A stretch of 52,425 bases of DNA from Candidatus Eiseniibacteriota bacterium (GCA_023129715.1 JAGMBO010000095.1:1-52425); one strand, 5' to 3'; shown: positions 31,761-49,906, numbered from the stretch's first letter. Numbers and translations: made by a program. The notes: a model not told the origin generated them from the letters alone.

Positions 31761-33898
31761 CGTCCACTCCTGATGATCTCGTCGAGCAGTCCCTCGGTCT
31801 CCTTCTGCAGGGTCAGAATATCTGCCCGGATCTCCTCTAGTGGACGGAGGGGCTGAGGGTTATAGAAGTACCGATTGAAGCTGATCTCGTAGCCGATCTT
31901 GACACTCGATTCGTCGTACCAGGCATCGTCCGCGTATGGGAGAACCTCCCGTCTGATGAACGCCTCGATGCCGCCCTCCTCCATGAGAGCGACCTGCTCC
32001 GTATCGCGGAGTTCGGTGTCGGGCTCATACTCGACGACGGCCCGCTTGCCGAGAACCGTCGCGTCATGCTGCCCCCGGATTGGGTCGGGCTCAACCTTCC
32101 CGGCCTTGTAGACCTTCTTGATCACCGGGGCGGCGATCTCGTCCCGCTCCGCGAGACTGTTCTGTAAGAGCTTCAGCCTCTTGGCGCTGAGCTTCAGACC
32201 CGCCTTCGCAGCCAATTGCTCCAGATCGGCCAGGAAGGCGTCGTAGTCAAGATGGGGGCCTGGGCCAAGCTCGGCGGCAGCCGCCTCGATCAACTCGCCC
32301 AGAGACGCGTCCTTGGCGTCAACGCAAATCGCCTTGAAGGCCGAAAGTTTCTCGGGGCCTAGGTCCACCCGCAGGCGAAGCGGCCGGTTCACCGTCACCT
32401 TCCAATAGCCGAAGGCAGCATTCGGGAAGATCTTGGACTGCTCCGTCTCCTCGAAGGCCAAGAAAGCCTCACAGACTCGGGAGATGTCCTCCTCGGACAG
32501 TTCGCTGTTCTTCTTTCCGAGGTTCTTCTGGAGCGGCTTGAACCACTGCGTGGCGTTGATCAGCTGGACCTTGCCTTTGCGGTGTTCGGGCTTTCGGTTG
32601 CTGAGGATCCAGACGTAGGTCGCGATGCCGGTGTTGTAGAACATGTTGAGCGGTAGGGCGACGATAGCCTCCAGCCAGTCGTTCTCCAGGATCCAACGGC
32701 GGATGTTGCTCTCCCCCTGTCCGGCATCCCCCGTGAAGAGTGAAGATCCGTTGTGGACCTCGGCAATCCGGCTGCCCAGTGGGGTACCGTGTTTCATCTT
32801 GGAGAGCATATTAGCGAGGAAGAGCAGCTGCCCATCGCTCGATCGCGTGAGGAGCGAGTACTCCGGGTCGTCTGCATGCTCGACAAGGAACCGGGAGTCC
32901 TTGATCCCGTCCTTCCCTCCCATCCGCTCCAGGTCGCTCTTCCAGCTCTTGCCGTAGGGGGGATTCGATAGCATGAAGTCGAACTCGCGTGATGGGAAAG
33001 CGTCGTTGGAGAGCGTCGAATGCTCGGGGCCCCCGACGATGTTGTCCGCAGCGTCTCCCTCGCCCTTCAGCAACAAGTCTGCCTTGCAGATGGCGTAGGT
33101 CTCGGCATTGATCTCCTGGCCGTAGAGGTGGGTGGCGACTTCCTTGCCATGCTCCTTGGCAAGCTGCTGGAGAGCCTCCTCTGCCACGGTCAGCATTCCA
33201 CCCGTCCCGCAGGCACCGTCGTAGATCAGGTAGGTCCCAGACTCGATCTGGTCCGCAATGGGCAGGAAGGTGAGCCGGGCCATGAGCTTGACTGCATCCC
33301 GTGGCGTCCAGTGCTCCCCAGCCTCCTCGTTGTTCTCCTCGTTGAACCGGCGCACCAGCTCCTCGAAGATCGTTCCCATGGCGTGGTTGTCGAGACCCGG
33401 TAGCCGGACAGACCCGTCACCCGCCATGACCGGGTGGGGACTCAGGTTGACCGATGGATCGAGGATCTTCTCGATCAGCGTGCCGAGGGCGTCAGCCTTT
33501 GAGAGGCGTGGGATCTGGTGACGGAACTCGAAGTTCTCGAGGATCTCCTGGACATTCGCCGAGAAGCCATCCAGGTAAGCCTCGAAATCGGCCCTGAGCT
33601 GACCCTGGCTGGCCCGCGCCCGGAGATCCCGGAGCGTGAACTTCGAGATGTTGTAGAACGCCTGCCCGGCCGCTTGGCGGAGGGCGGCATCCTGGTGGAC
33701 GATGCCCGCCTGATCGAGCTTGGCCCCCATGTCGAGCACGGCCTGCTTCGTGGGCTCCAGCACGGCATCCAGGCGGCGAAGTACAGTTATGGGTAGGATC
33801 ACATCGCGGTACTTGCCCCGGACATAGAGGTCCCGCAGCACGTCATCCGCGATGCCCCAGATGAAGTTGGCAATCCAGTTTAGTTGAGAGCGGTCCAT
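31757..33898 (-). CDS. hsdM: Type I restriction-modification methyltransferase subunit
   Basis: The 713-residue protein starts after a TAGGAGGAC site. The N-terminal helical domain (LNWIANFIWGIADDVLRDLY, LPITVLRRLDAVLEP) is HsdM_N. The N6-adenine methylase domain shows motif I DGACGTGGMLTVAEEAL near residue 230 and the catalytic NPPYGKSWK near 311. It methylates adenine in the sequence chosen by HsdS. The C-terminal 200 residues form an extra helical region (KLSAKRLKLLQNSLAERDE to LQKETEGLLDEIIRS) found in the longer HsdM subfamily. It is the first gene of the operon and diverges from the HTH gene at 34129. Confidence 0.95.
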   Translation of the reverse strand: MDRSQLNWIANFIWGIADDVLRDLYVRGKYRDVILPITVLRRLDAVLEPTKQAVLDMGAKLDQAGIVHQDAALRQAAGQAFYNISKFTLRDLRARASQGQLRADFEAYLDGFSANVQEILENFEFRHQIPRLSKADALGTLIEKILDPSVNLSPHPVMAGDGSVRLPGLDNHAMGTIFEELVRRFNEENNEEAGEHWTPRDAVKLMARLTFLPIADQIESGTYLIYDGACGTGGMLTVAEEALQQLAKEHGKEVATHLYGQEINAETYAICKADLLLKGEGDAADNIVGGPEHSTLSNDAFPSREFDFMLSNPPYGKSWKSDLERMGGKDGIKDSRFLVEHADDPEYSLLTRSSDGQLLFLANMLSKMKHGTPLGSRIAEVHNGSSLFTGDAGQGESNIRRWILENDWLEAIVALPLNMFYNTGIATYVWILSNRKPEHRKGKVQLINATQWFKPLQKNLGKKNSELSEEDISRVCEAFLAFEETEQSKIFPNAAFGYWKVTVNRPLRLRVDLGPEKLSAFKAICVDAKDASLGELIEAAAAELGPGPHLDYDAFLADLEQLAAKAGLKLSAKRLKLLQNSLAERDEIAAPVIKKVYKAGKVEPDPIRGQHDATVLGKRAVVEYEPDTELRDTEQVALMEEGGIEAFIRREVLPYADDAWYDESSVKIGYEISFNRYFYNPQPLRPLEEIRADILTLQKETEGLLDEIIRSGR

Positions 33899-34849: not shown

Positions 34850-35809
34850 GTGACGCCGCATGACATGCTAGAGGACGCTCTGCACTCTGAACTCATCTAC
34901 AAGTACTCAGCACCCAGACTGGATCTGCTCAAGTCGACGCTCATCCGCTTCACGCAGCCAAACGGACTGAATGATCCCTTCGAGGCCAGACCTCGGCTGC
35001 TGATGGATTCCCTCGCCCCTGAGGACATTGAGAGTGCGCGAGCAGAGGCCAAGATGATGGGCCTCTCGCCGGACCTGCCCCGGGAGCAGCTCGAAGCCCT
35101 ATTCCTTCGTGGGTTTCCGGCGCACCGGATGGATGAGAGATCGTTTCCTGGGCTCTGGCCATGCCATCTTCCAGCTTTGCGAGAGGAGCCTTTCGAGAGC
35201 CTCGGAGAACTCGATCGCTTCCGAGCGGACGAGGCCGCACGGGAGTTCATGGATGCCGCAAGCAAGGAACTAGGCATTCTGTGCCTGACCGAGGATGGCC
35301 ACTCCCAGCTCATGTGGGCACACTACGCTTGTTCACACAGTGGGGTCTTGCTCACATTCCACCGAGAGCACGCCTTCTTCAAGGAGGGCATGGGACTTCA
35401 CCGCGTGGAATATGCCCCACGGAGAGTCGCAGTTACTTCCAAGGACGGGCTCTTCCGCATCTGTGGGGTCCGCTTCGAGGACGCTGTACCGCTGCCCTTG
35501 CGCGCGTTCCTCAGGAAGCATCCAGTTTGGTCTCATGAAGTGGAACTTCGCATGATGCGCGCGCTTTCTGAATCCGTTGCGCAGAGACTCGACAAGCCAG
35601 ACGTGTACCTATTCCCTGTACCTCCCACAGCACTGGCGGCAATTGTCCTCGGTGCCAGAGCATCCGCGGAGTATGTTGCAGCGGTTCGGGCGATACTCTC
35701 CTCCGATGGCCGCTGGAGTCACGTAAGGCTCTTCGAGGCCATCCTTGATGGTCAGGAGATGGCCCTGAACTACGAGGAAACCGAGATGCGACGCGGAAGC
35801 TCACGGTGA
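34850..35809 (+). CDS. DUF2971 family protein
   Basis: The 319-residue protein starts at a GTG with GAGGA ten bases upstream. It has the DUF2971 landmarks: IYKYSAPRLDLLKSTLIRFT, then QPNGLNDPFEARP near residue 40, and CLTEDGHSQLMWAHYACSHSG near 150-165. The catalytic role of this family is not known to me; members often lie in defence islands and beside restriction systems. It is followed after 137 bases by the KAP NTPase on the same strand, so both may be expressed together. A role in antiviral defence is inferred from context only. Confidence 0.8.
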   Translation: MTPHDMLEDALHSELIYKYSAPRLDLLKSTLIRFTQPNGLNDPFEARPRLLMDSLAPEDIESARAEAKMMGLSPDLPREQLEALFLRGFPAHRMDERSFPGLWPCHLPALREEPFESLGELDRFRADEAAREFMDAASKELGILCLTEDGHSQLMWAHYACSHSGVLLTFHREHAFFKEGMGLHRVEYAPRRVAVTSKDGLFRICGVRFEDAVPLPLRAFLRKHPVWSHEVELRMMRALSESVAQRLDKPDVYLFPVPPTALAAIVLGARASAEYVAAVRAILSSDGRWSHVRLFEAILDGQEMALNYEETEMRRGSSR

Positions 35810-35946
35810 TTCGGGGGCTTCGTGGACCGGGCGAAGCTCTCACGTGCCCTCGAGAGATGAATCCGCCAGGGACGTTACGACGGGGCGGATGATTCCAGCC
35901 CCGGGCCAGGCCCTGTACCGGACCGCGCCTAGAGAGGGAGGCCTTC

Positions 35947-37365
35947 ATGCTCAGGAAGACGGAGGAGATTCAGGTAACTCCCGACAATCCTTTTACTGAG
36001 GACAAGCTGCAACGTCGCCGACCTGTTGAGAACATGGCAGCTCTGATATCTACGATCACTCAGCCCTTCGTGCTGGCAGTCGACGGCAGATGGGGAACGG
36101 GGAAGACCGTCTTCGCCCACATGCTGAGGGCACAATTGCAGAGCAGGGGGCACCCGTGTATCTACTTCAACGCCTGGGAGAATGACTTCGTTGCAGATCC
36201 AATGGTCGCCTTCTTGGGCGAAATCGATGCTGCAATCAAGAGCAAGGCGCTGAAGCTCCCGCCCAAGGCGGCTGCACGAAAGAAGTGGCGATCTGCAAGG
36301 CAGAAAGGCGAAGTAGTGTTGCGTGCGGCGGCGCCGCTCGCTGTCCGTATCCTTAGTCAGGGAATCATTGACGCCCCCCGCATCTCGGAGGCGCTTGAGA
36401 AGCTTGCTGGCGAGGCGCTGGATGGTTATCCGTCCCAGAAGAAGCAGATGGAGTCGTTCCGAGAATCTCTTCAAGGATTCGTGGACGCCGTCGGAGAATC
36501 CGCCGAGAACCAGCGCCTGCCCGTCGTCTTGATCATCGACGAACTCGATCGCTGCCGTCCCACATTCGCGCTGGAACTCCTGGAGCAGGTGAAGCACCTG
36601 TTCTCAGTGCGCGGTATGGTCTTCGTGCTGGCGATCGATCTCCAGCAGTTGAGCAGCATGGCGAAGGCCGTCTATGGCCCCGAGATGGACGGTCGTGGAT
36701 ACCTGCGTCGATTCATCGACCTGACATATGAGCTTCCGCAACCCGACTTGGCCGCCTACTGCCAGCATGTGATCGACGATCTGGAGCTCCCCACGTTCTT
36801 CTCTCCCCGACAGAATGGAGTGGAAGATGCTGAGCATCTCCTCTCCACCGTGACTGGCATGGCCGAGGTGTTCCAGCTCAGCCTGCGCGCCCTGGAGCAG
36901 TGTCTCACCGAGATCAATATCGTGCTGCGCACCACCCCACCATCGCACCTCTCCCTAGTCTTACTGACTTCGTTTCTCATCACCCTCAGGGCTTGGAATG
37001 CAGACCTTTACCATCAGTTCGCAGAAGGGAAGATTGGCGCAGGGCAATTGCTCTCGGGAATCCCAGCTCTGGCCAATAGCCCCTACTTCCAGGGCAGAGA
37101 CCACGACACCTACATGACAGCTTGCCTGTATGCGTTCTCAGGGATGCAGGGCGAGGCGGAAGCCCGGATCGAGGAACGCAAGGCAACCATGGACGATTCG
37201 GATCGAACCGATCATGAACGGAGGCTCGCGCAGAGCGAGCTGGAGTCGCTAGTCCCTCTGACCAAACACCATATGACCACCGGCTTGCGCTTGAGAGCAC
37301 TTCGGACTGTTCTCAGCAGAATCCAGGCCGCAACGGAATACGTGGTGTCCGTGCCTGAGGAATGA
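35947..37365 (+). CDS. KAP family P-loop NTPase
   Basis: The 472-residue protein begins just after a GGGAGG site. The Walker A loop is GRWGTGKT at residues 47-54, followed by the KAP signature YFNAWENDFVADP, and Walker B is VVLIIDELDRCRP with D198-E199. The block YLRRFIDLTYELPQPD matches the sensor region. KAP NTPases are STAND/AAA-like ATPases, often membrane-linked through inserted helices; no clear membrane pair is seen here apart from a mildly hydrophobic stretch near 118-130. Bacterial members are frequent in phage-defence clusters. Nothing in the sequence shows an attached effector, so the downstream action is unknown. Confidence 0.85.
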   Translation: MLRKTEEIQVTPDNPFTEDKLQRRRPVENMAALISTITQPFVLAVDGRWGTGKTVFAHMLRAQLQSRGHPCIYFNAWENDFVADPMVAFLGEIDAAIKSKALKLPPKAAARKKWRSARQKGEVVLRAAAPLAVRILSQGIIDAPRISEALEKLAGEALDGYPSQKKQMESFRESLQGFVDAVGESAENQRLPVVLIIDELDRCRPTFALELLEQVKHLFSVRGMVFVLAIDLQQLSSMAKAVYGPEMDGRGYLRRFIDLTYELPQPDLAAYCQHVIDDLELPTFFSPRQNGVEDAEHLLSTVTGMAEVFQLSLRALEQCLTEINIVLRTTPPSHLSLVLLTSFLITLRAWNADLYHQFAEGKIGAGQLLSGIPALANSPYFQGRDHDTYMTACLYAFSGMQGEAEARIEERKATMDDSDRTDHERRLAQSELESLVPLTKHHMTTGLRLRALRTVLSRIQAATEYVVSVPEE

Positions 37366-37464: not shown

Positions 37465-39657
37465 CTATGGGACGACAACCACCCTCTTCACCACCTCGTC
37501 TTCCCCGATGCTTAGCCGCAGGAAGTCCGCCCCCGCCGCCACTCTCTGCCCGAGCGCGTCGGTGGCATCCCAGATGAGCGTGCCGCTACCCTGCTCGCCA
37601 CACGATAGAATCCTGACGATTCGTCCAGCGGGGTCGCAGATCGCGAGCTGCGCGCTCTCAGTGCCTGCAGGCAGCACGTACCGGATCTGGGCGGCCCCCG
37701 ACACGGGGTTCGGCGACACGCTCGCCCAGAGGGTCTGCCGCGGCACTTCCGGCTCCACAACCTGCGGATCAGAACAGCCGACCGCCCATGCCCCTATCAG
37801 GCCACATCCGACCTGGTTGCAGGGCGAGTAGTTCCAGAGGTGGTAGTCCCCGTTCTCCGCGTCGCAGAAGCATGGGTCGGCGGAGAAGTTGCCGTTGATT
37901 CCCAGTTGATCGGCGATGAGGCCGACCCAGTCACCGCCGTAGTTGCCGTAGATATCGCAGCATTCTAGCACCACCTCTGCAAAGACCTCTGGACGCAGGC
38001 CACCACCATCCTGACTGAAGGCGATGATGCTGTTGTTGATCTCAACGTATGAGTCCGAATGAACACGTATCCCGCCGCCTGTGTCCGTCGCGAGATTCCC
38101 TGAGAAGGTGCAGCCAGTAACGACGTGACTCCCGCAGTAGAAGTAGATTCCACCTCCCTTTCCCTCAACGAAGTTGTCGGTGAAGGTGCAGTCCTCGAGG
38201 ATACTGCTGGAGTAGTTCTCGCAACTTAGCCCCCCTCCGCGGCCGAAGCACGTATTGCCGCCGATCACGCACCTCCTCATGGAGATCGAGGATTGCATAC
38301 CACATACGCCGCCACCCAGTGAGACGCTGGCGTTACGATCGATCCTGCAATCCTCCAACAGAGCCTCGGATGAGTAGCAATACAATGCTCCGCCATTGCC
38401 GCTCGCGACGTTCTCGGACAGATCACACATCGTGACGGAGGGGAAGGCTTCATGGTCAGCCACAATCCCTCCCCCGGAATCCCGAGCAAAGTTGTTGATG
38501 ATCCGACACGAATCGATCAACGGACTTGCACTGTCTCGACAAGCAATGGCTCCGCCATGAAGCGCTTCGTTGGACTTCAGGATGCAATTGATGATGGATG
38601 GGGAGCTGGCCAGGCAGAGGATGGCCCCGCCAAGATAGTCGGGCCAATCCCCTGTAGCATACCCATTGGTAATCGTTACCCTGCGCACTACTGCTAGGGA
38701 GTCCTCTTCCGTCACGAAGGCGAAACCACGGTGTGGATCGATTTCGCTGCCCTGACAGTCAATGACGCAGAACCGAGGATCCCGGTTGGCGGACCTCACC
38801 TCAATGGCTTTGCCCAGGAAATCGATATCCCGATTCCCATCCCCCGAAAAGGTGCCATCGGAGAGAAGGACGGTATCTCCATCCGCCGCAGCATTGACCG
38901 CGTCCTGAATCGTCGGGTAATCCCCAGAGCCATCGGCACGGACGTAGTAGGTAGCGGGCGGGTAGCTGATCAGTCCATCGATAATCAGGTTGTCGAAGGC
39001 AATGTCGAGCGCCGTATTCGCCCGCTCTCGATCGACCCTTCCCACGCCTTGCGCGCCAATACAAATGACCTGCACGGGGCCGCCATAGCCTCCCGCAGAT
39101 CCCAAGGAGGTGAAGACCTCGCTGCCCAAAGGCGCAAATGCCCCTGTCATTGTCTCGCCGACGCGGCTCACCCGATAGCGACCAGTCCACAAGACCTCAG
39201 GCGGAGGGTCTTGCGCGCCAATTGGAGCATCGGGCCCGTATGCCTCGATTCTCTGATCCGACGAGCCATGCGCGAACCTGAGCACCTCGAATACCTGAGG
39301 AACGCCATCCTCCACTGCCAGGATGGATTCATTCATTGTGCTTCCATTGGAAGGATCACGCGGGAACGTGGACAATTCGTAATCGACCGTGATACTGAAG
39401 TCACCGTCGACCCGGAACCGGGAGCGAATGCCACCCATGATGAACCCGTTGGGATTCACGATGAGTGGATCTTCAGGCTTGCTGATGCGTAGATTGGGTC
39501 CGTCGCAGTCGACGGTCCACAGATCGGCCGTGTTCTGGATGTCAAACAGCGATCCCGGGCCGTCCTCGAAATCGAACACGACTTGCTCGGCCTCGGCACC
39601 CATGCCGAATGGGAACCCACAGCAGGCGAGCACGAAGATCGCTATGATGGATCGCAT
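37465..39657 (-). CDS. Secreted right-handed beta-helix protein with FlgD-like C-terminal tag
   Basis: The 730-residue protein has a signal peptide (SIIAIFVLACCGFPFGMGAEA). An N-terminal beta-sandwich of about 200 residues is followed by the beta-helix, which begins YYVRADGSGDYPTIQDAVNA and continues with repeated coils containing GGAI, SSPSIINC and GGGI turns. This is the parallel beta-helix fold of pectin-lyase-like proteins. The C-terminal 90 residues (VSPNPVSGAAQIRYVLPAG to VVKRVVVVP) are a FlgD-like sorting module. The start ATG overlaps the stop of a 60-codon upstream frame as TAATG, with GGGGGG as possible ribosome-binding site. It is probably exported to the surface. Two paralogues lie at 45.6 and 47.1 kb. 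Confidence 0.9.
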   Translation of the reverse strand: MRSIIAIFVLACCGFPFGMGAEAEQVVFDFEDGPGSLFDIQNTADLWTVDCDGPNLRISKPEDPLIVNPNGFIMGGIRSRFRVDGDFSITVDYELSTFPRDPSNGSTMNESILAVEDGVPQVFEVLRFAHGSSDQRIEAYGPDAPIGAQDPPPEVLWTGRYRVSRVGETMTGAFAPLGSEVFTSLGSAGGYGGPVQVICIGAQGVGRVDRERANTALDIAFDNLIIDGLISYPPATYYVRADGSGDYPTIQDAVNAAADGDTVLLSDGTFSGDGNRDIDFLGKAIEVRSANRDPRFCVIDCQGSEIDPHRGFAFVTEEDSLAVVRRVTITNGYATGDWPDYLGGAILCLASSPSIINCILKSNEALHGGAIACRDSASPLIDSCRIINNFARDSGGGIVADHEAFPSVTMCDLSENVASGNGGALYCYSSEALLEDCRIDRNASVSLGGGVCGMQSSISMRRCVIGGNTCFGRGGGLSCENYSSSILEDCTFTDNFVEGKGGGIYFYCGSHVVTGCTFSGNLATDTGGGIRVHSDSYVEINNSIIAFSQDGGGLRPEVFAEVVLECCDIYGNYGGDWVGLIADQLGINGNFSADPCFCDAENGDYHLWNYSPCNQVGCGLIGAWAVGCSDPQVVEPEVPRQTLWASVSPNPVSGAAQIRYVLPAGTESAQLAICDPAGRIVRILSCGEQGSGTLIWDATDALGQRVAAGADFLRLSIGEDEVVKRVVVVP

Positions 39658-39839
39658 TAGGCCCCCCGTTCATGTTTGGGCCAATCACGGTCGAGCAACG
39701 CTGGGATTGTGCCGCCATCATTCGCCGCCCGTATTGTCGGCCATTCCCCCGTCCCGTCGGGCCGGACAAGGTGGGTGGTGGGGTGACCCGATGCGGTTAA
39801 GAAAAGCAGGACGCAGACGATGTAAAGGGCGCGCCACAT
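39657..39839 (-). pseudogene. 5' stub of a fourth beta-helix paralogue
   Basis: The 60-codon frame starts with a signal peptide (LYIVCVLLFLTASGHPTTHL) and the paralogue opening LVRPDGTGEWPTIRAA, which matches the first coil of the three complete beta-helix proteins. After that it breaks off into unrelated sequence and stops at the ATG of the next gene. It is best explained as the remaining 5' end of a deleted tandem copy. It might still be translated and coupled to the downstream gene. Confidence 0.65.
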
Positions 39840-40138
39840 AGCTCTCCCTCTTAGGTCACAACTTCGCCATCACGGTCGAGCGCCTTCTGGCACGGGAATC
39901 ATAGCGAAGGGAGACTACCAGCGCCAGCCTTGATCCGCAGAAGAGCATGGGCCGGTTGACGTCGGAAGACAGCAGTGGAAGATACCCATTGAGGCTGCTA
40001 GCCTAGTTTTCGCGTCGCTGCAGGGAAGGATGAGCCCCTATTGCTGGGCGAACCACGCGTACGCTGCCACAAGCGCTGGCGGGAACTCTCTGCAGTGAAG
40101 AGCGATAAGTTACCATGCGGGGCCAGGAAATGAAGACC

Positions 40139-41242
40139 ATGACGACACGGCTGTACCGTTTCCTTGTGTCGACTCGGGGGGCGGCAGGCCGCACACTTCG
40201 TGCCGCCGCCGCAGTCGCTAGGCCAAGGCTTCGCGCTTCCTTGTTCACCCTGCTCGTCATGGCTACAGCCATCAGCACATTCCTCTATTGGCAGAACCTC
40301 AATCCCGTCAAGTCCTCGTTGACCCGTCGGATAGCAGTCCATCCAGTCTTCTCTGATTCGCTTCCTCCGCGGGCAATCGCAGGATACACCGTCGATATCA
40401 AGGCAACGATTGATGACAGAGGCATTCTCCGGGAAGTCGTCCATCTCCAGGCCCGCGTTCCCTCAGATCCTTCCATCCTGTCCGAGTGTCGCGTCTCCTG
40501 GAGTGAACGGCCAGCCCTCCGCGTGCGCGATCTGATTCCATTGACGGCCGAAGTCGAGGGGATCGAAGGGGCTAAGCTCCCCCAGGTGTCCCCGGCTCAC
40601 TTGCGCCCACTCTTCTGTAGCGTCACCGACGACAGCGGAGTCGTAGTGGCCACGCCGACTGTCGCTCCGTCCTATGGCATGCTCGGCGATCTTGGGGCCA
40701 CAGGGGCCCACAAAGAGCTTGGCGTGAGATTGATGCACGAGAGCAGCCTTGGACACGAGGGTTCATGGTATGACGTGCGCCTCTGCTTGGGGATTCCGGA
40801 GGGCCAGAGGATCCCCTTCTCTTCGTGGCGACGCGGGGAGTACCTGATTGAGTATGTGGTCGATGCGACGCCCGTCTTGATCGGCGAGTGGGGAAAACAT
40901 CGGGCGCTTCTCTTGGCGAAGTTGGCCGAGTACTCGGACATCACTGGCACGGTCGATGTCCCCGGCCAGCTTCTAAGCGTCCATCCTCAGACGAGCGCCC
41001 GAGAAGTAGAGGCATCGCGGGTGGCCTTCAACTTCCGCGATCTGAAGTCCGGGTTCGATCCACTCCAGACGCTGTCGTCTTTCGATCGTGTGACATGGGG
41101 GAAGGGCTTCGAGGGCACTGTGTACTTGAAGTTCGCCCACGACAGGATCCGAATCGTCCACAGCCTTCCACTGATCCTATCACTCCTTGGCGTCTTGCTG
41201 GGTCTCGGCGTAGGGGTCCGCCTGAGGTGGTGGCTGCCGTAG
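40139..41242 (+). CDS. Membrane protein with N- and C-terminal membrane helices
   Basis: The product has one membrane helix near the N-terminus (ASLFTLLVMATAISTFLYWQ) after a basic Arg/Ala-rich cytoplasmic segment and a second at the end (IVHSLPLILSLLGVLLGLGV), leaving about 280 residues between them, presumably periplasmic. That middle part is beta-rich without a known motif. In-frame ATGs at 40115 and 40130 are alternatives; 40139 is favoured because an AGGAA lies at the usual distance before it. No family recognised. It diverges from the beta-helix stub across a 300-base gap. Confidence 0.7.
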   Translation: MTTRLYRFLVSTRGAAGRTLRAAAAVARPRLRASLFTLLVMATAISTFLYWQNLNPVKSSLTRRIAVHPVFSDSLPPRAIAGYTVDIKATIDDRGILREVVHLQARVPSDPSILSECRVSWSERPALRVRDLIPLTAEVEGIEGAKLPQVSPAHLRPLFCSVTDDSGVVVATPTVAPSYGMLGDLGATGAHKELGVRLMHESSLGHEGSWYDVRLCLGIPEGQRIPFSSWRRGEYLIEYVVDATPVLIGEWGKHRALLLAKLAEYSDITGTVDVPGQLLSVHPQTSAREVEASRVAFNFRDLKSGFDPLQTLSSFDRVTWGKGFEGTVYLKFAHDRIRIVHSLPLILSLLGVLLGLGVGVRLRWWLP

Positions 41243-41327
41243 AGCTGGACGGAGACGGCGCTCGAAGTAGATCAGGCTCGGCGGCTCGCTGAGGCACCCT
41301 GCCTTCCCGCCAACTGCTCGCGGCCAA

Positions 41328-41387
41328 ACACTTCCGTTCGCTTACGCACACTCTTGTTCGCACCCGAACGCTTCTGCTCGCCTCCAC
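41328..41387. repeat. Short tandem repeat family (20-bp unit), locus 2
   Basis: Three head-to-tail units of exactly 20 bases: AACACTTCCGTTCGCTTACG, CACACTCTTGTTCGCACCCG and AACGCTTCTGCTCGCCTCCA. The preceding flank CTTCCCGCCAACTGCTCG resembles that of locus 3. It lies in the gap between the membrane protein and a 136-aa gene. Confidence 0.7.
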
Positions 41388-41463
41388 ACTCCCTCGGCCT
41401 GGCACGCTTCCCGCTACAGAACCAGCGGAAGTCAGGAATCGGACAGCTGGCATAGGAGGACGT

Positions 41464-41874
41464 GTGGCATCGAACCGTGATTCTTGGACCCTGCCCCTCG
41501 ACGAGCTCATGCTCGAACTCGATGCCGGGCTACGAGACCTATGGGACATCGTCGAGGGCTCGCTGACGCCGGACAGGGAGGCCGAGTTCGTCGCAATCCT
41601 CAGCTGGATCCTGGCCCTCGAGGCGGAGATCGCATGGAAGGCAGGCATCCCGCCTGCCGCGTCGACCTGTGGCATCCCCTGTCCGATCAGTCTCAACGAC
41701 CGCGTCGAGAAGACAGCACCTCCGGGCTGGGCAATCGCGGTGTTCCTCAAGCACCATCGTCTCTTCGCGCGATTCCGGATCACACGACTTCGCTCCGATG
41801 TAACCCCGCGGGCGCGTTTCGTTCAGGGGTACTCCTCCCCTGTGACGCGTCCATCTAGAAACGCGCCCGCGTGA
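41464..41874 (+). CDS. Hypothetical 136-aa protein
   Basis: The frame starts at a GTG with AGGAGGA just upstream, which is the main support. Residues 5-60 are acidic and helical (LPLDELMLELDAGLRDLWDI, LSWILALEAEIAW), while the last 50 are basic with Arg and Pro. No family recognised. The C-terminal part may be a chance extension, since composition changes there. It lies between repeat loci 2 and 3. Confidence 0.5.
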   Translation: MASNRDSWTLPLDELMLELDAGLRDLWDIVEGSLTPDREAEFVAILSWILALEAEIAWKAGIPPAASTCGIPCPISLNDRVEKTAPPGWAIAVFLKHHRLFARFRITRLRSDVTPRARFVQGYSSPVTRPSRNAPA

Positions 41875-42140
41875 GACAGGTTCACCGCCTCACGACTGAG
41901 CAACGGCATGAAGCGTGCCTCCCCGAGCATTGCGGGATGACTCGAGCCTTCGCTTCCCTCTGCAAAGCCTTGTCTCCGGACCGTTGCGTGCGTTGCCAAG
42001 GCACCTGGAGGTCAGGAACGCATGACGCCACAAGCAAGCTATGCCGTTCGGCGAGTTGACCTTCCCTCGTACGGGCGCTCGGTGACCGACCGGTGCTTCC
42101 TCACGCGATGGACACCCCAGCTTCCCCGCCGACTGTTCGG

Positions 42141-42225
42141 CCCGAACACTCCCGCACAACAGGCGAACACTTTCGTTCGCTTCCGAACAACTGTCCGCCC
42201 CGACCGAACACTTCTGTTCGCTTTC
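42141..42225. repeat. Short tandem repeat family (20-21-bp unit), locus 3
   Basis: Four units in a row, alternating 21 and 20 bases: AACACTCCCGCACAACAGGC(G), AACACTTTCGTTCGCTTCCG, AACAACTGTCCGCCCCGACC(G) and AACACTTCTGTTCGCTTTCG. The perfect palindrome CGAACA-CTTC-TGTTCG is at 42205-42220, identical to locus 1. It lies 150 bases before the protease gene. Confidence 0.7.
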
Positions 42226-42373
42226 GGCCGCATGGCGAACACGGACATGACCGAAAAGCTCGCCACCACCCAGTCCGCGCAGTTTTCCTGCTTGTCAGCC
42301 AGCTCCAGCTGCCATAGACTTCTCTCATTGAAGGCCCTTTGAGTGTACGTACCGCGATCATGGGAGGCCTCAG

Positions 42374-45226
42374 ATGAGAACGCTATGCTCCGTCCTTCTG
42401 TTCTTTGCCGCCACTGCACTTCTAGCCCACGCCGATTCCGATGACCTCTCAGGCGGCGTCCTGCTCGTCCACGCCCCACCCAACTTGGTCTACACCACCA
42501 ACCCGTCCATCGATTGGTGTGACTCCACCAACCTCGCTAGCTGCGAGGATCAGGTCACGCGGGTCGATGAAGGAGAAGCGGTCTGGTACATCCTCAGCGC
42601 CTGGGATGAGGTAAAGAGCTTCTGTGCCGTCGAGTTCGGTCTCGGGGACTACGATTCTGAGAACTACATCTTCGAGGACTACGGGCTATGCCTATCGGAC
42701 GCGATGGCGCTCTTCCATCCCTCTTCACAGGAGTGGCCAGGGCCGAATACTGGCATTGCCCTTGTGGCCAGTGAAGGGAGTTGGTCGGACAGCCTGGCCC
42801 CGATCTGCTGGTTCGTCGGGTACGCCTATGCGGGCACCGACACGATCGCGATCACGGAGAACCCTGCTTCGGACAATGCAGGTTGGCTCTCTGGAGTTTC
42901 CTCGACGCCCTATGAGGCAGAGTGCCTGGGCGCGTTGGGCATAGGGGCGGGCGGAGCGGCCTGTTGTCCCGAGTCAGGTCGTGACAGTGAAGAAGACCCA
43001 CCCGGAGAGGAGGATTCTGAGCACAGCACCAGCTCCCCTGACTTCGACTACACTGTGCCTCTCGTACCCCGGGTCGTCATCGCATCCATTTCTAAGGACG
43101 CCTTCTCCGTCCCCGAAGACCGTGCCCAATTGACTCTTGCCGATGCGATCTCGGACCCGGATGTTCGGATTTCCGACCAACTCGCCACCCTGCTCGAGGA
43201 CACTGGCGTCTTGACTATCGAACGGATCTTTCCGGAATTCGACCCTGCCATCTATGATCGCCACGGGAGACCAGTCCTCGACTTGGACGGACAGCCACTT
43301 ACGGTACCCAACGATCTCAGCGTATGGTTCCGCCTCAGCCTCGACCATGATGATGTCTCCGGTGCGATCTCGCGCCTCCGCAATAGACATGGCATACGCG
43401 GAGCCGAGCCGAGCAGAATCCTTAATCCCGAGTCGCCGCCGACCGATACTCTGTTTGCCCCTCAGCAATGGAATCTACACAATTACGGCCAGTACTGTGA
43501 TGGGTCAGCCGGATACGACATCAACTTCCTTGCCGCCTGGGATTCCTTCGGAGTTGAACTTCCCTTCCCGGTTCCAGTTGGCATTCTCGATACGGGAATC
43601 GATTCGGATCACGAAGATCTCCTTCACGTAGTCGTTGCCGACAATTACACCGACGATGACACTGCGGAAGACAAGGACGGACATGGAACACAAAGTGCTG
43701 GCGTAATAGGGATGGCTCCCAACAATGACAAAGGAGGGGTCGGGATCGCTCCAGCGGATACAATGGTGAACTATAAGGTGCTGTATGCGGGTCTTAACGA
43801 GGCCACCTGGACCTATGAGGCAATTGACGATGCCCTGACAAGAGGTGTCGGGGCGTCAGGCCAAGGAGTCCCGATCAAGGTTGTCAATCTCAGCCTAGGA
43901 CGCTACGGCGACCCAAGTGAGCTGGAAGGTCTAGTACTACAGAATGCCTGCGCCTCCGGTATGGCCTGCATAGCGGCTGCCGGGAATGAAGGTTACCATA
44001 TCACAAGATCTGAGCCCAATCATCACTACCCATCTGACTATGGGCCTCTGGTCTGCAGTGTGAACGCCTTCATCTACTCTGGACAGCGATGGGAAGACGT
44101 ACTACTTCCCCCGTACTTCGATATCCACGCATCGAACTGGGGCCAATACATCGACCTCACTGCTCCCGGTGGCCGAGGCATTGCGGGCCCGAGCGTACCG
44201 CTACCTTACGAACAGGGGAATTACATGGACTTCTCCTATTTCCCCGATTTCCCTGACAGCGCGCTCTCTCCCGACTGCAATACTGACGACAATTACCTCT
44301 ACGCACAGACGTTCCCCATGACTTCCGCAGCAGCACCGCATGTAACAGGGGTCATCGCAGCTGTTCTCTCATGCAACTCAACACTCTCCGGGGAGGATGG
44401 ACTGGCGATTGTCATCCGGACTGCAGTCGACCACGACGTTCTTCCCTGCACTCCTGATTGGGACGGACACTCTGGTTGGGGTCGACCCGATCTCTTTAGG
44501 GCTATGCAACTGGGCTTTGAGCCTGTTAAGGAGCGGGGCATGGTCTCAGACTCGGGGGCCATCATCCAGGACGAAGGCACGGGGATTGCCTTTTTCAAGT
44601 GGACGCCCGAGGTGGAGCGGGGGGACCACAGCTTCCGTCGCTGGAAGGTCACAAAGACAGTGCAACTTGAGAATTCATATGAGAATCCGATTGCATGGAG
44701 CCGCATCGAGGGTTCCTGCGGCTGGCGGATGATAGAAGCCGCAGATGATGAATACTGGGGCGCCATAGAGAACCGAGGCTATGTGACGATTGAGGAACTC
44801 ACCTCGGGAACAATCAGACTCGCTACGTATTTCTATGACGTTACCACAAGTGAAGGCACCTATCGAGTGCCCTGTGATGGGGACGTGACTATGTCGTTCA
44901 CCGTGGTAGAAGGGGAAACCGTGTTCCCATCAGGAGTCCGAGAATCTGATGTGAGGGTACAGCACACTCCTCTTGTCGCGCGCCCCAATCCCTCCCAGCG
45001 TGCGGTGTCGTTTTCGGTGGATGGTTTGGGCGACGAGAACGTGACCAGAATTCAGGTTCTCACTCTTGAGGGCCGAGTGATACGCGAACTCGTTGTCTCT
45101 GACAGAGGTTCTGTCGAATGGGACCTTCTGGACGACATAGGGCACCCGGTTCCGGCCGGGATCTACTTCGTCCGCGGGTCCAAGCCCTTGTTGGGTCAAC
45201 CGAGGAAGCTCGTCGTGGTCCGCTAG
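42374..45226 (+). CDS. Secreted subtilisin-like serine protease (S8) with FlgD-like C-terminal tag
   Basis: The 950-residue protein follows a GGGAGGCC site and starts with a signal peptide (TLCSVLLFFAATALLAHADS). About 380 residues of N-terminal region include an unknown beta domain and a likely propeptide. The peptidase S8 triad is Asp406 (GILDTGIDSDHED), His437 (KDGHGTQSAGV) and Ser651 (TSAAAPHVTG); NLSLGRYG and the oxyanion-hole Asn in AAAGNEG are also present. The end of the protein (LVARPNPSQRAVSFSVDGLG to PRKLVVVR) is a FlgD-like sorting module of the kind also seen at 14.6 and 37.5 kb. It is expected to be exported and to break down extracellular protein or process surface proteins. 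Confidence 0.93.
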   Translation: MRTLCSVLLFFAATALLAHADSDDLSGGVLLVHAPPNLVYTTNPSIDWCDSTNLASCEDQVTRVDEGEAVWYILSAWDEVKSFCAVEFGLGDYDSENYIFEDYGLCLSDAMALFHPSSQEWPGPNTGIALVASEGSWSDSLAPICWFVGYAYAGTDTIAITENPASDNAGWLSGVSSTPYEAECLGALGIGAGGAACCPESGRDSEEDPPGEEDSEHSTSSPDFDYTVPLVPRVVIASISKDAFSVPEDRAQLTLADAISDPDVRISDQLATLLEDTGVLTIERIFPEFDPAIYDRHGRPVLDLDGQPLTVPNDLSVWFRLSLDHDDVSGAISRLRNRHGIRGAEPSRILNPESPPTDTLFAPQQWNLHNYGQYCDGSAGYDINFLAAWDSFGVELPFPVPVGILDTGIDSDHEDLLHVVVADNYTDDDTAEDKDGHGTQSAGVIGMAPNNDKGGVGIAPADTMVNYKVLYAGLNEATWTYEAIDDALTRGVGASGQGVPIKVVNLSLGRYGDPSELEGLVLQNACASGMACIAAAGNEGYHITRSEPNHHYPSDYGPLVCSVNAFIYSGQRWEDVLLPPYFDIHASNWGQYIDLTAPGGRGIAGPSVPLPYEQGNYMDFSYFPDFPDSALSPDCNTDDNYLYAQTFPMTSAAAPHVTGVIAAVLSCNSTLSGEDGLAIVIRTAVDHDVLPCTPDWDGHSGWGRPDLFRAMQLGFEPVKERGMVSDSGAIIQDEGTGIAFFKWTPEVERGDHSFRRWKVTKTVQLENSYENPIAWSRIEGSCGWRMIEAADDEYWGAIENRGYVTIEELTSGTIRLATYFYDVTTSEGTYRVPCDGDVTMSFTVVEGETVFPSGVRESDVRVQHTPLVARPNPSQRAVSFSVDGLGDENVTRIQVLTLEGRVIRELVVSDRGSVEWDLLDDIGHPVPAGIYFVRGSKPLLGQPRKLVVVR

Positions 45227-45564
45227 GAACCGCGCGTGGAGCGGAAGCGGATGGAAAGCGCAGCACGCGACCAGGTAGTGGTGTCAATGGCAAGCTCTGC
45301 CGTGCGCGCAACTGCCAGTCCGAGGACCTCAGCATGTCTTCACCCATGGTTCGGACGGGGCTGCCCGGAGCCTGAAGATCGAACCTCTGTTCGCCCGCCG
45401 GTCCGGCGCACGCTGCGCTTCATGGGAAACCAAGTGTTTATGACACTTCGCGTTACGCTGCCCTTACATCGCAACATCCCACAAGCAGGACCAACAGCTG
45501 TCTTCATCTGCCCGCGTTCTCGTGTGCGAAGTCAACGGGCAAGGCCACGGAGCACCCCCAGCAG
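45227..45564. other. Intergenic stretch upstream of the beta-helix pair
   Basis: About 340 bases between the protease stop and the promoter-like site at 45565. A long open frame in phase with the next gene runs through here but has unnatural Arg/Pro/Ser-rich composition and no start site, so it is not counted as coding. No terminator with a T-run is seen. Confidence 0.4.
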
Positions 45565-45573
45565 TGCTATACT
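45565..45573 (+). promoter_or_regulatory. Extended -10 promoter candidate for the 45629 gene
   Basis: TGCTATACT is a match to the extended -10 consensus and lies 56 bases before the start codon. No good -35 is present. The same nonamer in the word GTGCTATACT lies 50 bases before the paralogous gene at 47107. Confidence 0.4.
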
Positions 45574-45628
45574 TATTGCACGTGGGGTAGTACCGGCTTC
45601 GCACAAGAGGGCCAGAGGAGGAACTTCC

Positions 45629-47011
45629 ATGCTCCGCCACGCACTGCTTTCCTTCGCAGTCTTGCTGTCCGTCAGCACCGCTCGTGCCGATGTCTATCTT
45701 GTGGTCTCCGACGGGACGGGGGACTTCCCGACCATCCAAGCTGCAATCAATGCGGCTACTGACGGGGATGTCATTCTTCTCGGTGACGGCACCTTCGTCG
45801 GAGATGGAAACCGTGACCTCACATATGGAGGCAAGGCGATCACCATCCAGTCCGAGAATGACGACCCTCAAGGCTGCATCTTGGACTGCCAGGGATCCGA
45901 AGGAGATCCCCACCGGGGCGTCGCCTTCGTCTCAGACGAGACTCGTGAGTCCGTCCTCCGCGGGATCACCATCATGAATGGCTGGGTCGGTGGCTGGGAC
46001 TTCCCAGAGGGTTCGGGTGGGGCGGTTTTATGTGAATGGTCCTCCCCGACGATCGAGAACTGTGTCTTCCTCAATAACGCTGCCCGCAGTGGGGGGGGTA
46101 TGACATCCTTCTACGGGTCAAGTCCTGCGATCATCGATTGTACTTTCGAGGGCAATGACGCCTACTACGGCGGAAAGGGAGGTGGGTTATTGGTGGATTC
46201 CTCTATCCACCCTCTGGTCACCGGCTGCACATTCAGGAACAACAGCGACACAGGGATATCATCGGAGGGATCCGGCACAGAGGTACGCAACTGTGATTTC
46301 TCTGGACACGCTAACTTCGGCGTCACGTGCGGCGACGGCTATACGCACACCTATATCATAGATGGATGCCGATTCTTTGACAACCTTGGCCCAGGTCTGC
46401 GATGCACGAGCGCAGGCGGCGTCATCTCATCGTGTGCGTTCTGGGCCAACGAGGCCGAGGACGGGGCGGCCTTACTCCTCGTCTTTGGTTTCTCGGGCAC
46501 GGTTTCGGATTGTCTATTCTATGGGAACCGCGCGGCTGAATCTGGCGGTGCTGTCTGGTGCGGTGATGCTACGGCCACATTCGAGAACTGCACCATCGCC
46601 TACAACGAGGCCGGGAACGGAGCCGGTGGTATCCACTGCGGCTCCGCGACGGTGACCCTTGAGAATACGATCATTGCCTTTAGCACAGCTGGGGGGGCGG
46701 TCGCCGGGGCCGCGGATCTGTCTTGCTGCGACCTCTACGGAAACGCTGGGGGGAACTGGATCGGGGACATTGCGGGTCAATACGGCATCGATGGCAACAT
46801 CTCGGAGGATCCCATCTTCTGCGATCCGTGGAGCGACGACTTCACCCTGCAATCGGACTCCCCATGCGCGCCCTTCTCGTTGCCGAATCCTGAGTGCGAT
46901 CTCATTGGTTCTGAGCCAATAGGATGTCAACCGCCGACGGGAGTGTGGCCGCCTGCAGAAGCTGCGTCCTGGGGCGGGGTCAAGGCTCTCTTCCGGGAAG
47001 GTACCGACTGA
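45629..47011 (+). CDS. Secreted right-handed beta-helix protein with WGGxKALFR C-terminal tag
   Basis: The chosen ATG at 45629 has an AGAGGAGG site and is followed at once by a signal peptide (LRHALLSFAVLLSVSTARAD), giving 460 residues. The mature protein opens YLVVSDGTGDFPTIQAAINA and has beta-helix coils with GGAV, SSPTIENC, GGGM and GAGGIHC turns. The region NRDLTYGGKAITIQSENDDP and the phrase LDCQGSEGDPHRG align with the 37.5-kb paralogue. It ends EAASWGGVKALFREGTD, with no FlgD-like domain. The short tail with SWGGVKALFR is shared with the next gene and may be a sorting or anchoring signal. It is likely a surface or secreted protein of unknown ligand. Confidence 0.88.
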   Translation: MLRHALLSFAVLLSVSTARADVYLVVSDGTGDFPTIQAAINAATDGDVILLGDGTFVGDGNRDLTYGGKAITIQSENDDPQGCILDCQGSEGDPHRGVAFVSDETRESVLRGITIMNGWVGGWDFPEGSGGAVLCEWSSPTIENCVFLNNAARSGGGMTSFYGSSPAIIDCTFEGNDAYYGGKGGGLLVDSSIHPLVTGCTFRNNSDTGISSEGSGTEVRNCDFSGHANFGVTCGDGYTHTYIIDGCRFFDNLGPGLRCTSAGGVISSCAFWANEAEDGAALLLVFGFSGTVSDCLFYGNRAAESGGAVWCGDATATFENCTIAYNEAGNGAGGIHCGSATVTLENTIIAFSTAGGAVAGAADLSCCDLYGNAGGNWIGDIAGQYGIDGNISEDPIFCDPWSDDFTLQSDSPCAPFSLPNPECDLIGSEPIGCQPPTGVWPPAEAASWGGVKALFREGTD

Positions 47012-47048
47012 TCCCCTGCGATCCGCCAGCGTTCGCAACCCGAGGCCG

Positions 47049-47057
47049 TGCTATACT
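47049..47057 (+). promoter_or_regulatory. Extended -10 promoter candidate for the 47107 gene
   Basis: TGCTATACT again, 50 bases before the start codon, within the same GTGCTATACT word as the site at 45565. It would let the second beta-helix gene be transcribed on its own. Confidence 0.4.
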
Positions 47058-47106
47058 CGCAGCGACATAGGTGACTGTGGTTTCCCTGGTAGATGAGGGC
47101 TGTGCC

Positions 47107-48273
47107 ATGGCCCGCAAGCTCCTGGCTGTCCTGCTGGTACTCACCGCGTCGTGGGCTGCACGCGCAGAGACCTATCTGGTAGATCCCCTCGGCACCGGGG
47201 ACTTCCCCACCATCCAGACTGCTGTGGACGCCGCCGTGACGGGTGACACGATCTACCTGGCCGATGGCACGTTCCGCGGCGAGGGCAACTACGACGTTCT
47301 GTGCATGGGGAAGGCAATCGAGGTTAGGTCCCTCAGTGACGACCCATCGGCCTGCACTGTCGACTGTGAGGGCACCGCGTCGATCAATCGTCGTGGCTTT
47401 GAGTTCCGGCAGATCGTCTCTCCCGGCGCCGTTCTTCGAGGCATCACTGTTACCAATGGTCACGGAGACATGGGTGGGGGTGCTGTTTGTTGCTGGGACA
47501 ATACAGCGGTCGCCTTCAGCAATTGCGTGTTTAGCAACTCCCGGGACGAGAGCGGAAGCGCGGGTGGAGGTTTCGGTGGCGGTGGAGTGGTCTCGGGAGG
47601 GGGAATTACCTTCACCGACTGCAGATTCGAGGGCAATAGTGCCACGGGCGGAGGTGCGTTTGCCGCCTCTGGCGAGGGCATCGTTACATTCGAGCGCTGC
47701 ACGTTTGTTGACAATGCTGGCTCGGGGGACGGCGGTGCATGCTATCTCGACTCGATGATAGAAGTCCACTTCTCCGAGTGCCTATTTTTGGGGAATCAGT
47801 CTCAGTATGGTGGGGCCCTGTTCTGCTGGGCCAGTGCAGCGGTCTTTCTCGACCGATGCACCTTCGTGCGGAATACTGCCACATCATACGGCAGCAGCTT
47901 CTGCAGCTACCTCGGAGGTGTCGCTGTCATCGATAATAGTATCCTTGCATTCGGCGAAGGCGGCTCCGCTGTCTACTGCGGTGACCCCGACTGTGCCCAA
48001 CTGAGTTGCTGTGACGTCTATGGGAACGCTGGGGGCGACTGGGTAGATGGCATTGAGGGTCTGGAGGGTATTGACGGCAACATGTCCATGGATCCGCTCT
48101 TCTGTGGATCCAGCCAGGGCGATTACGCACTGCACTCGGATTCTCCATGTGCGGCTGACAACAATCCCGAGTGCGGGCAGATCGGGGCTCTGGGTATTGG
48201 CTGCGCCGGGAGCCCCATCGAAGATCGCACCTGGGGAGGCCTGAAGGCTCTCTTTCGGGCGCTGACTCGCTGA
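47107..48273 (+). CDS. Secreted right-handed beta-helix protein with WGGxKALFR C-terminal tag (paralogue)
   Basis: From the ATG at 47107, preceded by GAGGGC, the product is 388 residues with a signal peptide (LLAVLLVLTASWAARAE). It opens TYLVDPLGTGDFPTIQTAVD and shows Gly-rich coils (GGGFGGGGVVSGGGITF, GGGAFAASGEG, GGALFCWASAAVFLD). The segment SCCDVYGNAGGDW near the end is nearly identical to that in the 45.6-kb paralogue (SCCDLYGNAGGNW) and in the 37.5-kb one. The last residues are RTWGGLKALFRALTR. It lies 95 bases downstream of its paralogue and the two are a tandem duplication with later divergence. Confidence 0.88.
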   Translation: MARKLLAVLLVLTASWAARAETYLVDPLGTGDFPTIQTAVDAAVTGDTIYLADGTFRGEGNYDVLCMGKAIEVRSLSDDPSACTVDCEGTASINRRGFEFRQIVSPGAVLRGITVTNGHGDMGGGAVCCWDNTAVAFSNCVFSNSRDESGSAGGGFGGGGVVSGGGITFTDCRFEGNSATGGGAFAASGEGIVTFERCTFVDNAGSGDGGACYLDSMIEVHFSECLFLGNQSQYGGALFCWASAAVFLDRCTFVRNTATSYGSSFCSYLGGVAVIDNSILAFGEGGSAVYCGDPDCAQLSCCDVYGNAGGDWVDGIEGLEGIDGNMSMDPLFCGSSQGDYALHSDSPCAADNNPECGQIGALGIGCAGSPIEDRTWGGLKALFRALTR

Positions 48274-49160: not shown

Positions 49161-49288
49161 AGGGGGCGTTCCTCCCCTGCTACCGCAACAGTGCTGGGAG
49201 TTTCCAACCTACATGCTATCGAGCTATTCTCCAGGTGCACACCTTGAGGCACCGTTCTGTAGATGGAGTTCATGAGGGCCGAGGAGTC

Positions 49289-49906
49289 ATGAAAGCTCTC
49301 GGAGCTGGGATTGTCGGATTGGCCGCGCTGATCCTCTGTGCCTCAGCAGCAGACGCTGGGCCTCGCCTCTCCGTTCGAGGTGGGATCGTCAGGGCCGATG
49401 TGGAGACCGAGGGGCGTGCATGGGAGACGGAGCCTATCTGGACCGCGAGCGCTGGAGGCGCCTGTCGGTTTCCTCTGGATCGCCCTTTGTTCTACGAGCT
49501 GGAAGCCCTCTATGTCCAGAAGGGGGCCTCATTTCGAATCGGGGATTCCCAGGGGGAGACCGCCCTCAAGTACTTGACCTTTTCCAACCTTGTGGGACTA
49601 CGCCTGAATGTAGGTCGAGTCTCCGCTTTTTGGATCGGCGGAGTGGAAATGGGCTTTCGCTTGGTTGCCAGATACAGGCAGGAGACCCCTACCGTCAGCG
49701 AGTCGGATCTTCGACCCAGAATCTCTGACTCTGACCTCGGCATCGTTATCGGTGGGGGACTTCAGTTGCCGATTGGCAAGAGCGCGTTTGAGGTGCAGGT
49801 ACGATATGTCTTCGGCATTCCGGACATACATGCGGACCCCGATGGGGGCGGTCCCGTTGACTGGAGGAATCGAAGCATCTACTTGCTGCTCTGTGTGTAT
49901 CCTTGA
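49289..49906 (+). CDS. Outer-membrane beta-barrel-like protein
   Basis: The ATG at 49289 has CGAGGAG just upstream and begins a signal peptide (LGAGIVGLAALILCASAADA); a much longer upstream open frame has unnatural composition and is rejected. The 185-residue mature part alternates polar and hydrophobic residues in strands (RLSVRGGIVRADVETEG, PLFYELEALYVQKGASFRI, NLVGLRLNVGRVSAFWIGGVEMGF, SAFEVQVRYVFG) and ends SIYLLLCVYP. This is the eight-strand barrel pattern of small outer-membrane proteins of the OmpW/PorT kind. No ligand can be assigned. It stands alone. Confidence 0.75.
   Translation: MKALGAGIVGLAALILCASAADAGPRLSVRGGIVRADVETEGRAWETEPIWTASAGGACRFPLDRPLFYELEALYVQKGASFRIGDSQGETALKYLTFSNLVGLRLNVGRVSAFWIGGVEMGFRLVARYRQETPTVSESDLRPRISDSDLGIVIGGGLQLPIGKSAFEVQVRYVFGIPDIHADPDGGGPVDWRNRSIYLLLCVYP

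Follow-up and report, generated by a model that had tools for sequence, protein, structure and literature searches.

Several bacterial systems sort unrelated exported proteins by means of a common C-terminal end. The signals described for the type IX secretion system (T9SS) take the form of domains at least about 70-100 residues long, and a 2023 review considers both the system and its C-terminal domains (CTDs) to be confined to Bacteroidota (PMC10202324). Type A, B and C domains are distinguished, type B being read by PorP/SprF-like shuttles (PMC10202324, PMC12618676); in Flavobacterium, CTDs unite two signals, one for secretion and one for targeting, and pair with shuttles (PMC12618676). The PEP-CTERM, GlyGly-CTERM, MYXO-CTERM and LPXTG signals are short C-terminal homologies borne by unrelated exported proteins in a many-to-one arrangement (PMC3237569, PMC11980579). 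Each of these consists of a motif, a transmembrane helix and a basic cluster, and their respective partners are exosortase, rhombosortase, myxosortase and sortase. Here we describe a nine-residue C-terminal tag that resembles the latter group in its shortness and in the diversity of the proteins that carry it, but is made of a motif only. It was found in a 52,425-nucleotide stretch from a Candidatus Eiseniibacteriota bacterium (hereafter the window), which lies on contig C182, one of 186 in a 4.83-Mb genome. We estimate at roughly 70% the probability that the tag is a protein-level C-terminal sorting signal.

Three paralogues with exchanged ends

The window encodes three β-helix paralogues. 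The two plus-strand copies (likely starts 45629 and 47107) terminate in SWGGVKALFREGTD and TWGGLKALFRALTR; the minus-strand copy carries another type of end. The features concerned are as follows.

45629..47011, plus strand: tagged β-helix protein A, 460 residues (PF13229, E 3.4e-22); Sec-type signal peptide, right-handed β-helix, linker and tag
46967..46996, plus strand: tag of protein A, SWGGVKALFR (tail profile E 9.9e-6; own-genome search)
46997-47011, plus strand: four residues (EGTD) and the stop codon after the tag of protein A
47107..48273, plus strand: tagged β-helix protein B, 388 residues, tandem paralogue of A and 35% identical to it (PF13229, E 7.1e-9)
48229..48258, plus strand: tag of protein B, TWGGLKALFR (tail profile E 2.8e-5)
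48259-48273, plus strand: four residues (ALTR) and the stop codon after the tag of protein B
37465..39657, minus strand: β-helix paralogue with the alternative end, 730 residues, about 200 of them extra at the N-terminus
37465..37695, minus strand: FlgD-like, T9SS type A-like C-terminal domain in the tag's place (PF13860)
42374..45226, plus strand: neighbouring subtilase (S8) with a T9SS-type C-terminal domain (PF00082, E 1.4e-30)

With signals and ends removed, the three paralogues are 39%, 34% and 35% identical to one another (E 7e-71 to 2e-48). They share the first-coil pattern YxVxxxGTGDFPTIQxAxxAAxxGD and an SCCDxYGNxGGxW block, as a preliminary description of the locus had claimed. The same description had also given them a common signal peptide, which proved incorrect: the FlgD-type copy has a different signal peptide and its added residues lie ahead of the first coil. 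Its assignment of a FlgD-like end to one copy and a short tail to the other two was borne out, the PF13860 match spanning residues 655-710 of the minus-strand protein with E 2.8e-5 and a score (24.4 bits) slightly under the 27-bit Pfam cut-off. The called open reading frame (ORF) of protein A, starting at 45236, probably begins too early, the signal peptide starting at 45629.

This exchange of ends, noticed at first on three genes, is general in the genome. Used as a query, the passenger of protein A matched 127 stretches. Among 52 family members with a C-terminal block and a stop codon, 28 end in the tag and 21 in a T9SS-type domain; three have neither and none has both. The two kinds of end part immediately downstream of a conserved GxxGC block. 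The best tree of the family has the end switching between tag and T9SS type 10-11 times, which suggests repeated exchange, with weak support and a single change being compatible with the starred branches. The β-helix paralogues of this one genome (G000) thus form a very large family, with more than 50 members scattered over many contigs (L297-L355); some copies, such as L310 and L328, appear to be broken.

A protein-level C-terminal module

The tag conforms to the motif W-G-x-(I/V/L)-K-x-(L/M/I)-(Y/F)-R and mostly ends exactly at the stop codon. A strict DNA pattern (W-G or a near codon, any residue, hydrophobic, K, any residue, hydrophobic, F/Y, R) found 31 sites in the genome, nearly all of them C-terminal, against none for the same pattern reversed; relaxed searches brought the number of C-terminal tags to about 50 (54 candidates, a few by chance). 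In a larger set of 194 tails, 165 have the stop codon immediately after the motif and 21 have it four residues further on. When a relaxed motif was sought in 115 public loci, it coincided with 120 frame ends, a count biased by the retrieval of these loci through the motif itself, and with none of 623,930 internal positions, a zero that is unbiased.

Conservation operates on the protein. Passengers diverge while tails remain almost invariant: in six homologues that are 29-43% identical to the first, W-G-x-I-K-S-L-Y-R is constant apart from x. The choice among synonymous codons is free at conserved positions (73, 36, 27 and 17 occurrences of the four glycine codons, all six arginine codons) and all three stop codons are used. 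On account of this variation, a nucleotide-level signal was rejected. The tail is a distinct C-terminal module that stands by itself, as the preliminary description had proposed; that it sorts or anchors proteins was not established, nor was a route separate from that of the FlgD-like domain, the T9SS translocon being present alongside (see below).

One could envision the tail as inherited homology within a single paralogous β-helix family, since the strict tags of this genome sit mostly on β-helix proteins. This explanation can practically be dismissed. When 142 tagged proteins were compared without signal and tail, BLAST left 64 clusters unlinked to one another, five of them within this one genome, and the passengers recognised by Pfam include, besides β-helix proteins (27), lamin-tail domain (LTD), NHL, PKD, FG-GAP, thioester and other proteins. 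A search for WGGxKALFR-like tails on secreted proteins, which the preliminary description had called for, found them in this genome and in relatives; far from being limited to the two tandem paralogues, the tail occurs on unrelated exported proteins of several candidate phyla.

As expected of a C-terminal sorting signal, the tag is associated with export-type N-termini. A strongly hydrophobic, signal-peptide-like start is present in 133 of 146 complete tagged ORFs; if only ATG starts are considered, the proportion is 75%, compared with 26% for other ORFs of the same loci. Only eight tagged proteins are lipoprotein-like. Among the families matched by passengers are some whose names refer to other sorting signals, namely ScyF (PEP-CTERM, 1.3e-79), ExeM-GG, rhombosortase-dependent M36 and choice-of-anchor J.

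Distribution of the tag

Of 47 genomes from the phylum, 37 have the strict tag; its reversed control had no match in any of the 47. A profile hidden Markov model of the tail (18 positions, built from 75 tails) found matches in all 47 at a loose E of 10, with few in family f11; several matches from the weakly matching genomes, f11 included, were inspected and proved to be real C-termini. In tag-bearing genomes from public records, the number of matches reaches 99 in a single genome. The few tags of f11 read TTWGKIKARFR, and in family f9 arginine often replaces the lysine (STWGRVRNTYR).

A scan of 84,980 species genomes with the tag matched at least 115 stretches. The titles among the matches listed are those of Eisenbacteria, Krumholzibacteriota/-iia, Latescibacterota, Zixibacteria, UBP1, Coatesbacteria, Effluviviaceae, metagenome-assembled genomes of Gemmatimonadota, and unnamed bacteria; no Bacteroidota, Proteobacteria or Actinobacteria title was among them. 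The tag is likely to be absent outside these groups, and its single match in a Zixibacteria genome (G049) may be due to mis-binning.

The tag was also encountered in viral sequences. Among 2.9 million viral contigs of IMG/VR, four exact matches were found, all in-frame and C-terminal:

L367:1570-1599, minus strand: tag on a protein with a lipoprotein-like start
L368:3152-3181, minus strand: tag on a protein with a signal peptide
L369:214-243: tag
L370:12449-12478: tag

On the L367 and L368 contigs, the tagged genes are accompanied by Erf and exonuclease genes of a phage-like kind, so that tagged exported proteins may be carried by phages that infect these bacteria.

Candidate readers and routes

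The partner of the tag was sought among the known sorting systems. SprA, the T9SS translocon, is encoded in the genome under study (7.8e-113) and convincingly in 43 of the 47 phylum genomes, the remaining four being 69-86% complete. It is likewise present in 25 of 25 tag-bearing genomes from public records, two of which (G063, G071) seem to duplicate phylum genomes. The matches of G071, an Eisenbacteria genome, are the same as those of G034 down to their coordinates, by which the phylum is taken to be Eisenbacteria. The T9SS type A domain (TIGR04183) occurs in all 47. The near-universal presence of SprA and TIGR04183 in this phylum contrasts with the restriction of T9SS to Bacteroidota in the 2023 review (PMC10202324).

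These findings lend some credit to the idea of the tag as one more, minimal class of T9SS signal, whose bearers would exit via SprA with the help of a shuttle of their own. We regard this version of the sorting-signal interpretation as a tentative one. It is in keeping with the alternation of tag and T9SS-type domain on one passenger family, with the tendency of genomes richer in CTD candidates to be richer in tags (Spearman 0.65, counts per Mb, no correction for descent), and with the pairing of Flavobacterium CTDs with shuttles (PMC12618676). Like the tag, type A domains (TIGR04183/PF18962; FlgD-like PF13860) are a common end of diverse Sec-exported passengers, with many copies per genome, and types B and C provide a precedent for the coexistence of several signal classes and different shuttles in one genome (PMC10202324, PMC12618676), as tag and CTD coexist here. 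The resemblance does not extend to the signals themselves. A type A domain is an Ig-like domain of about 70-80 residues made of other residues, types B and C are also large domains, and the nine-residue tag is accompanied by no such domain. Neither tagged protein of the window matches TIGR04183 or PF18962; TIGR04183 is absent from the 25 families with the most matches to the 142 tagged proteins, as are the type B families TIGR04131 and PF13585 from the top families listed. The type B gene usually adjoins that of its shuttle, whereas no PorP/SprF-like shuttle recurs among 127 neighbours of tagged genes. Bacteroidota, where T9SS is standard, are missing from the titles of the matches listed. Finally, family f11 retains about two thirds of the CTD density and one sixth of the tags, type A domains remaining numerous where tags are few.

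This last disparity, the far steeper drop in tags, speaks for the other version, in which an undescribed system, independent of T9SS and without relation to it, uses the tag to sort or anchor proteins in the envelope. We hold this version with the same reserve as the former. In its favor, no known signal model was found to cover the tag: none of the Pfam and NCBIfam families matched by most tagged proteins includes the tail. Last-residue variants in families f5 and f9 also suggest a co-varying receptor; more generally, the lineage-specific variants of the tail (L209-L238, from G011, G017 and the f11 genomes) are suggestive of co-variation with a reader. Against it stand the nearly constant presence of SprA and the failure to find a partner: clusters and Pfam/NCBIfam tallies of the 127 neighbours of tagged genes returned generic families, 11 of the neighbours being FlgD/T9SS-cargo proteins. 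As SprA accompanies the tag in nearly all genomes, a minimal T9SS signal served by a dedicated shuttle is not separable from an independent system. A small outer-membrane β-barrel protein (PF13568, NF049866) is encoded about 1 kb downstream of gene B (49283-49906, plus strand); no recurrent link between it and tags was seen.

The preliminary description had also envisaged a sortase-like or rhomboid partner. While SprA does co-occur with the tag, exosortase did not stand up as a reader, and no search was made for sortase or rhombosortase. That the tag is the substrate of an exosortase, a sortase or a rhomboid-type enzyme seems very improbable to us. The upstream sequence P-V-E-x-(S/T)-(S/T)-W loosely resembles the start of PEP-CTERM, and an exosortase match is found in 22 of 31 genomes, that of the window included. 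However, the tag has neither a transmembrane segment nor a basic cluster after it: the chain mostly stops directly at the motif, whose lysine lies inside the nine residues. Moreover, seven genomes that each have many tags, some of these genomes being incomplete, gave no PF09721 match (G010, G016, G032, G053, G057, G062 and G068); exosortase as the reader was rejected on this distribution. We do not favor either an identity with the β-signal of the β-barrel assembly machinery, with which spacing and terminal residue presumably do not fit.

A more modest role would be that of a periplasmic handle, either a recognition tag for a chaperone or protease or a generic membrane-binding helix. A short C-terminal sequence combining aromatic and basic residues would suit such a role, and a terminal helix is predicted on two unrelated passengers. 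In protein A, an AlphaFold2 model from an 18-row alignment (mean pLDDT, the predicted local distance difference test, 82) shows a solenoid followed by a linker of low confidence, and closes with a helix at residues 445-458; for the second passenger a helix is again predicted at the end, but the model is poor (pLDDT 51). We nevertheless consider this role unlikely. Membrane binding would not demand such specific conservation of W, G and K, nor so constant a distance to the C-terminus, the amphipathicity of the tag is not above that of permuted columns, and the tag replaces a T9SS domain on the same passengers. The models agree, if weakly, with a flexible recognition peptide.

A number of observations weigh against the tag being a sorting signal, or at least against its strict definition. 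The terminal helix of protein A is predicted at low confidence (pLDDT 40-45), and the argument from an amphipathic helix is unsupported (column permutation 0.21). The neighbourhoods of tagged genes yielded no dedicated partner, although this fits many-to-one systems. W, K and R are fixed by the search pattern, so that their apparent invariance is partly imposed. Degenerate tails of this genome finish in E, Q, Y, K, D, W or L, and family f5 keeps TTWGxIK with altered last residues (TTWGGIKTVLGN, ..N/GN). A β-helix sub-branch that includes both window genes has four residues beyond the arginine; since many β-helix members of the genome share this extension, a free terminal arginine is not strictly required. 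Tails lacking the final arginine still span nine residues from the tryptophan to the stop. Lastly, the signal-peptide calls rely on a simple home-made hydrophobicity score rather than a trained predictor.

Proposed mode of action and implications

If the tag is a sorting signal, the following scheme can be proposed. Tagged proteins, to judge from their predicted signal peptides, would be exported by Sec. The tail would sit on a linker rich in proline, serine, threonine and glutamate, and would probably become helical when bound. In the periplasm, one receptor or shuttle common to all tagged proteins of the cell would recognise it and bring the passenger to, or retain it at, the outer membrane or the cell surface. 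In the passenger families that use both, tag and FlgD-like T9SS domain would be alternatives to each other. It is tempting to go further and imagine a whole sorting system, with its own receptor and route, distinct from both T9SS and sortase-like systems, that serves several Eisenbacteria-related candidate phyla and is used by tagged proteins carried by phages; in this extended form the idea is doubtful.

A C-terminal sorting signal is known in principle; this one is new in form, having neither a transmembrane helix nor an Ig domain, with respect to the libraries and papers searched. No description of the tail was found in the open-access literature, subscription papers not being covered. As a sorting signal, nine residues would make an unusually small C-terminal address for a Gram-negative envelope. 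In bacteria known mostly from metagenomes, whose surface proteins are largely unannotated, the tag is borne by as many as about 100 exported proteins of a genome and could provide a handle for predicting secretomes and for finding its reader by phylogenetic profiling. Its alternation with T9SS domains on the same passengers makes the sharing of cargo by two C-terminal signals directly testable.

Other genes in the window

The range from 37465 to 48273 also holds genes unrelated to the β-helix family, a 375-residue ORF at 40115 and the subtilase at 42374. The C-terminus of the subtilase matches NF052228 (PorZ) at 3.4e-5 and TIGR04183 at 0.0095, both under cut-off; this gene is context, outside the tag system. 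Elsewhere in the window are a large serine recombinase, possibly of a mobile element (6463-8481, plus strand), a Type I restriction-modification operon, hsdM/hsdS/hsdR (27313-33898, minus strand), and a DUF2971 protein followed by a KAP-family NTPase (34850-37365, plus strand), a pair that resembles defence genes.

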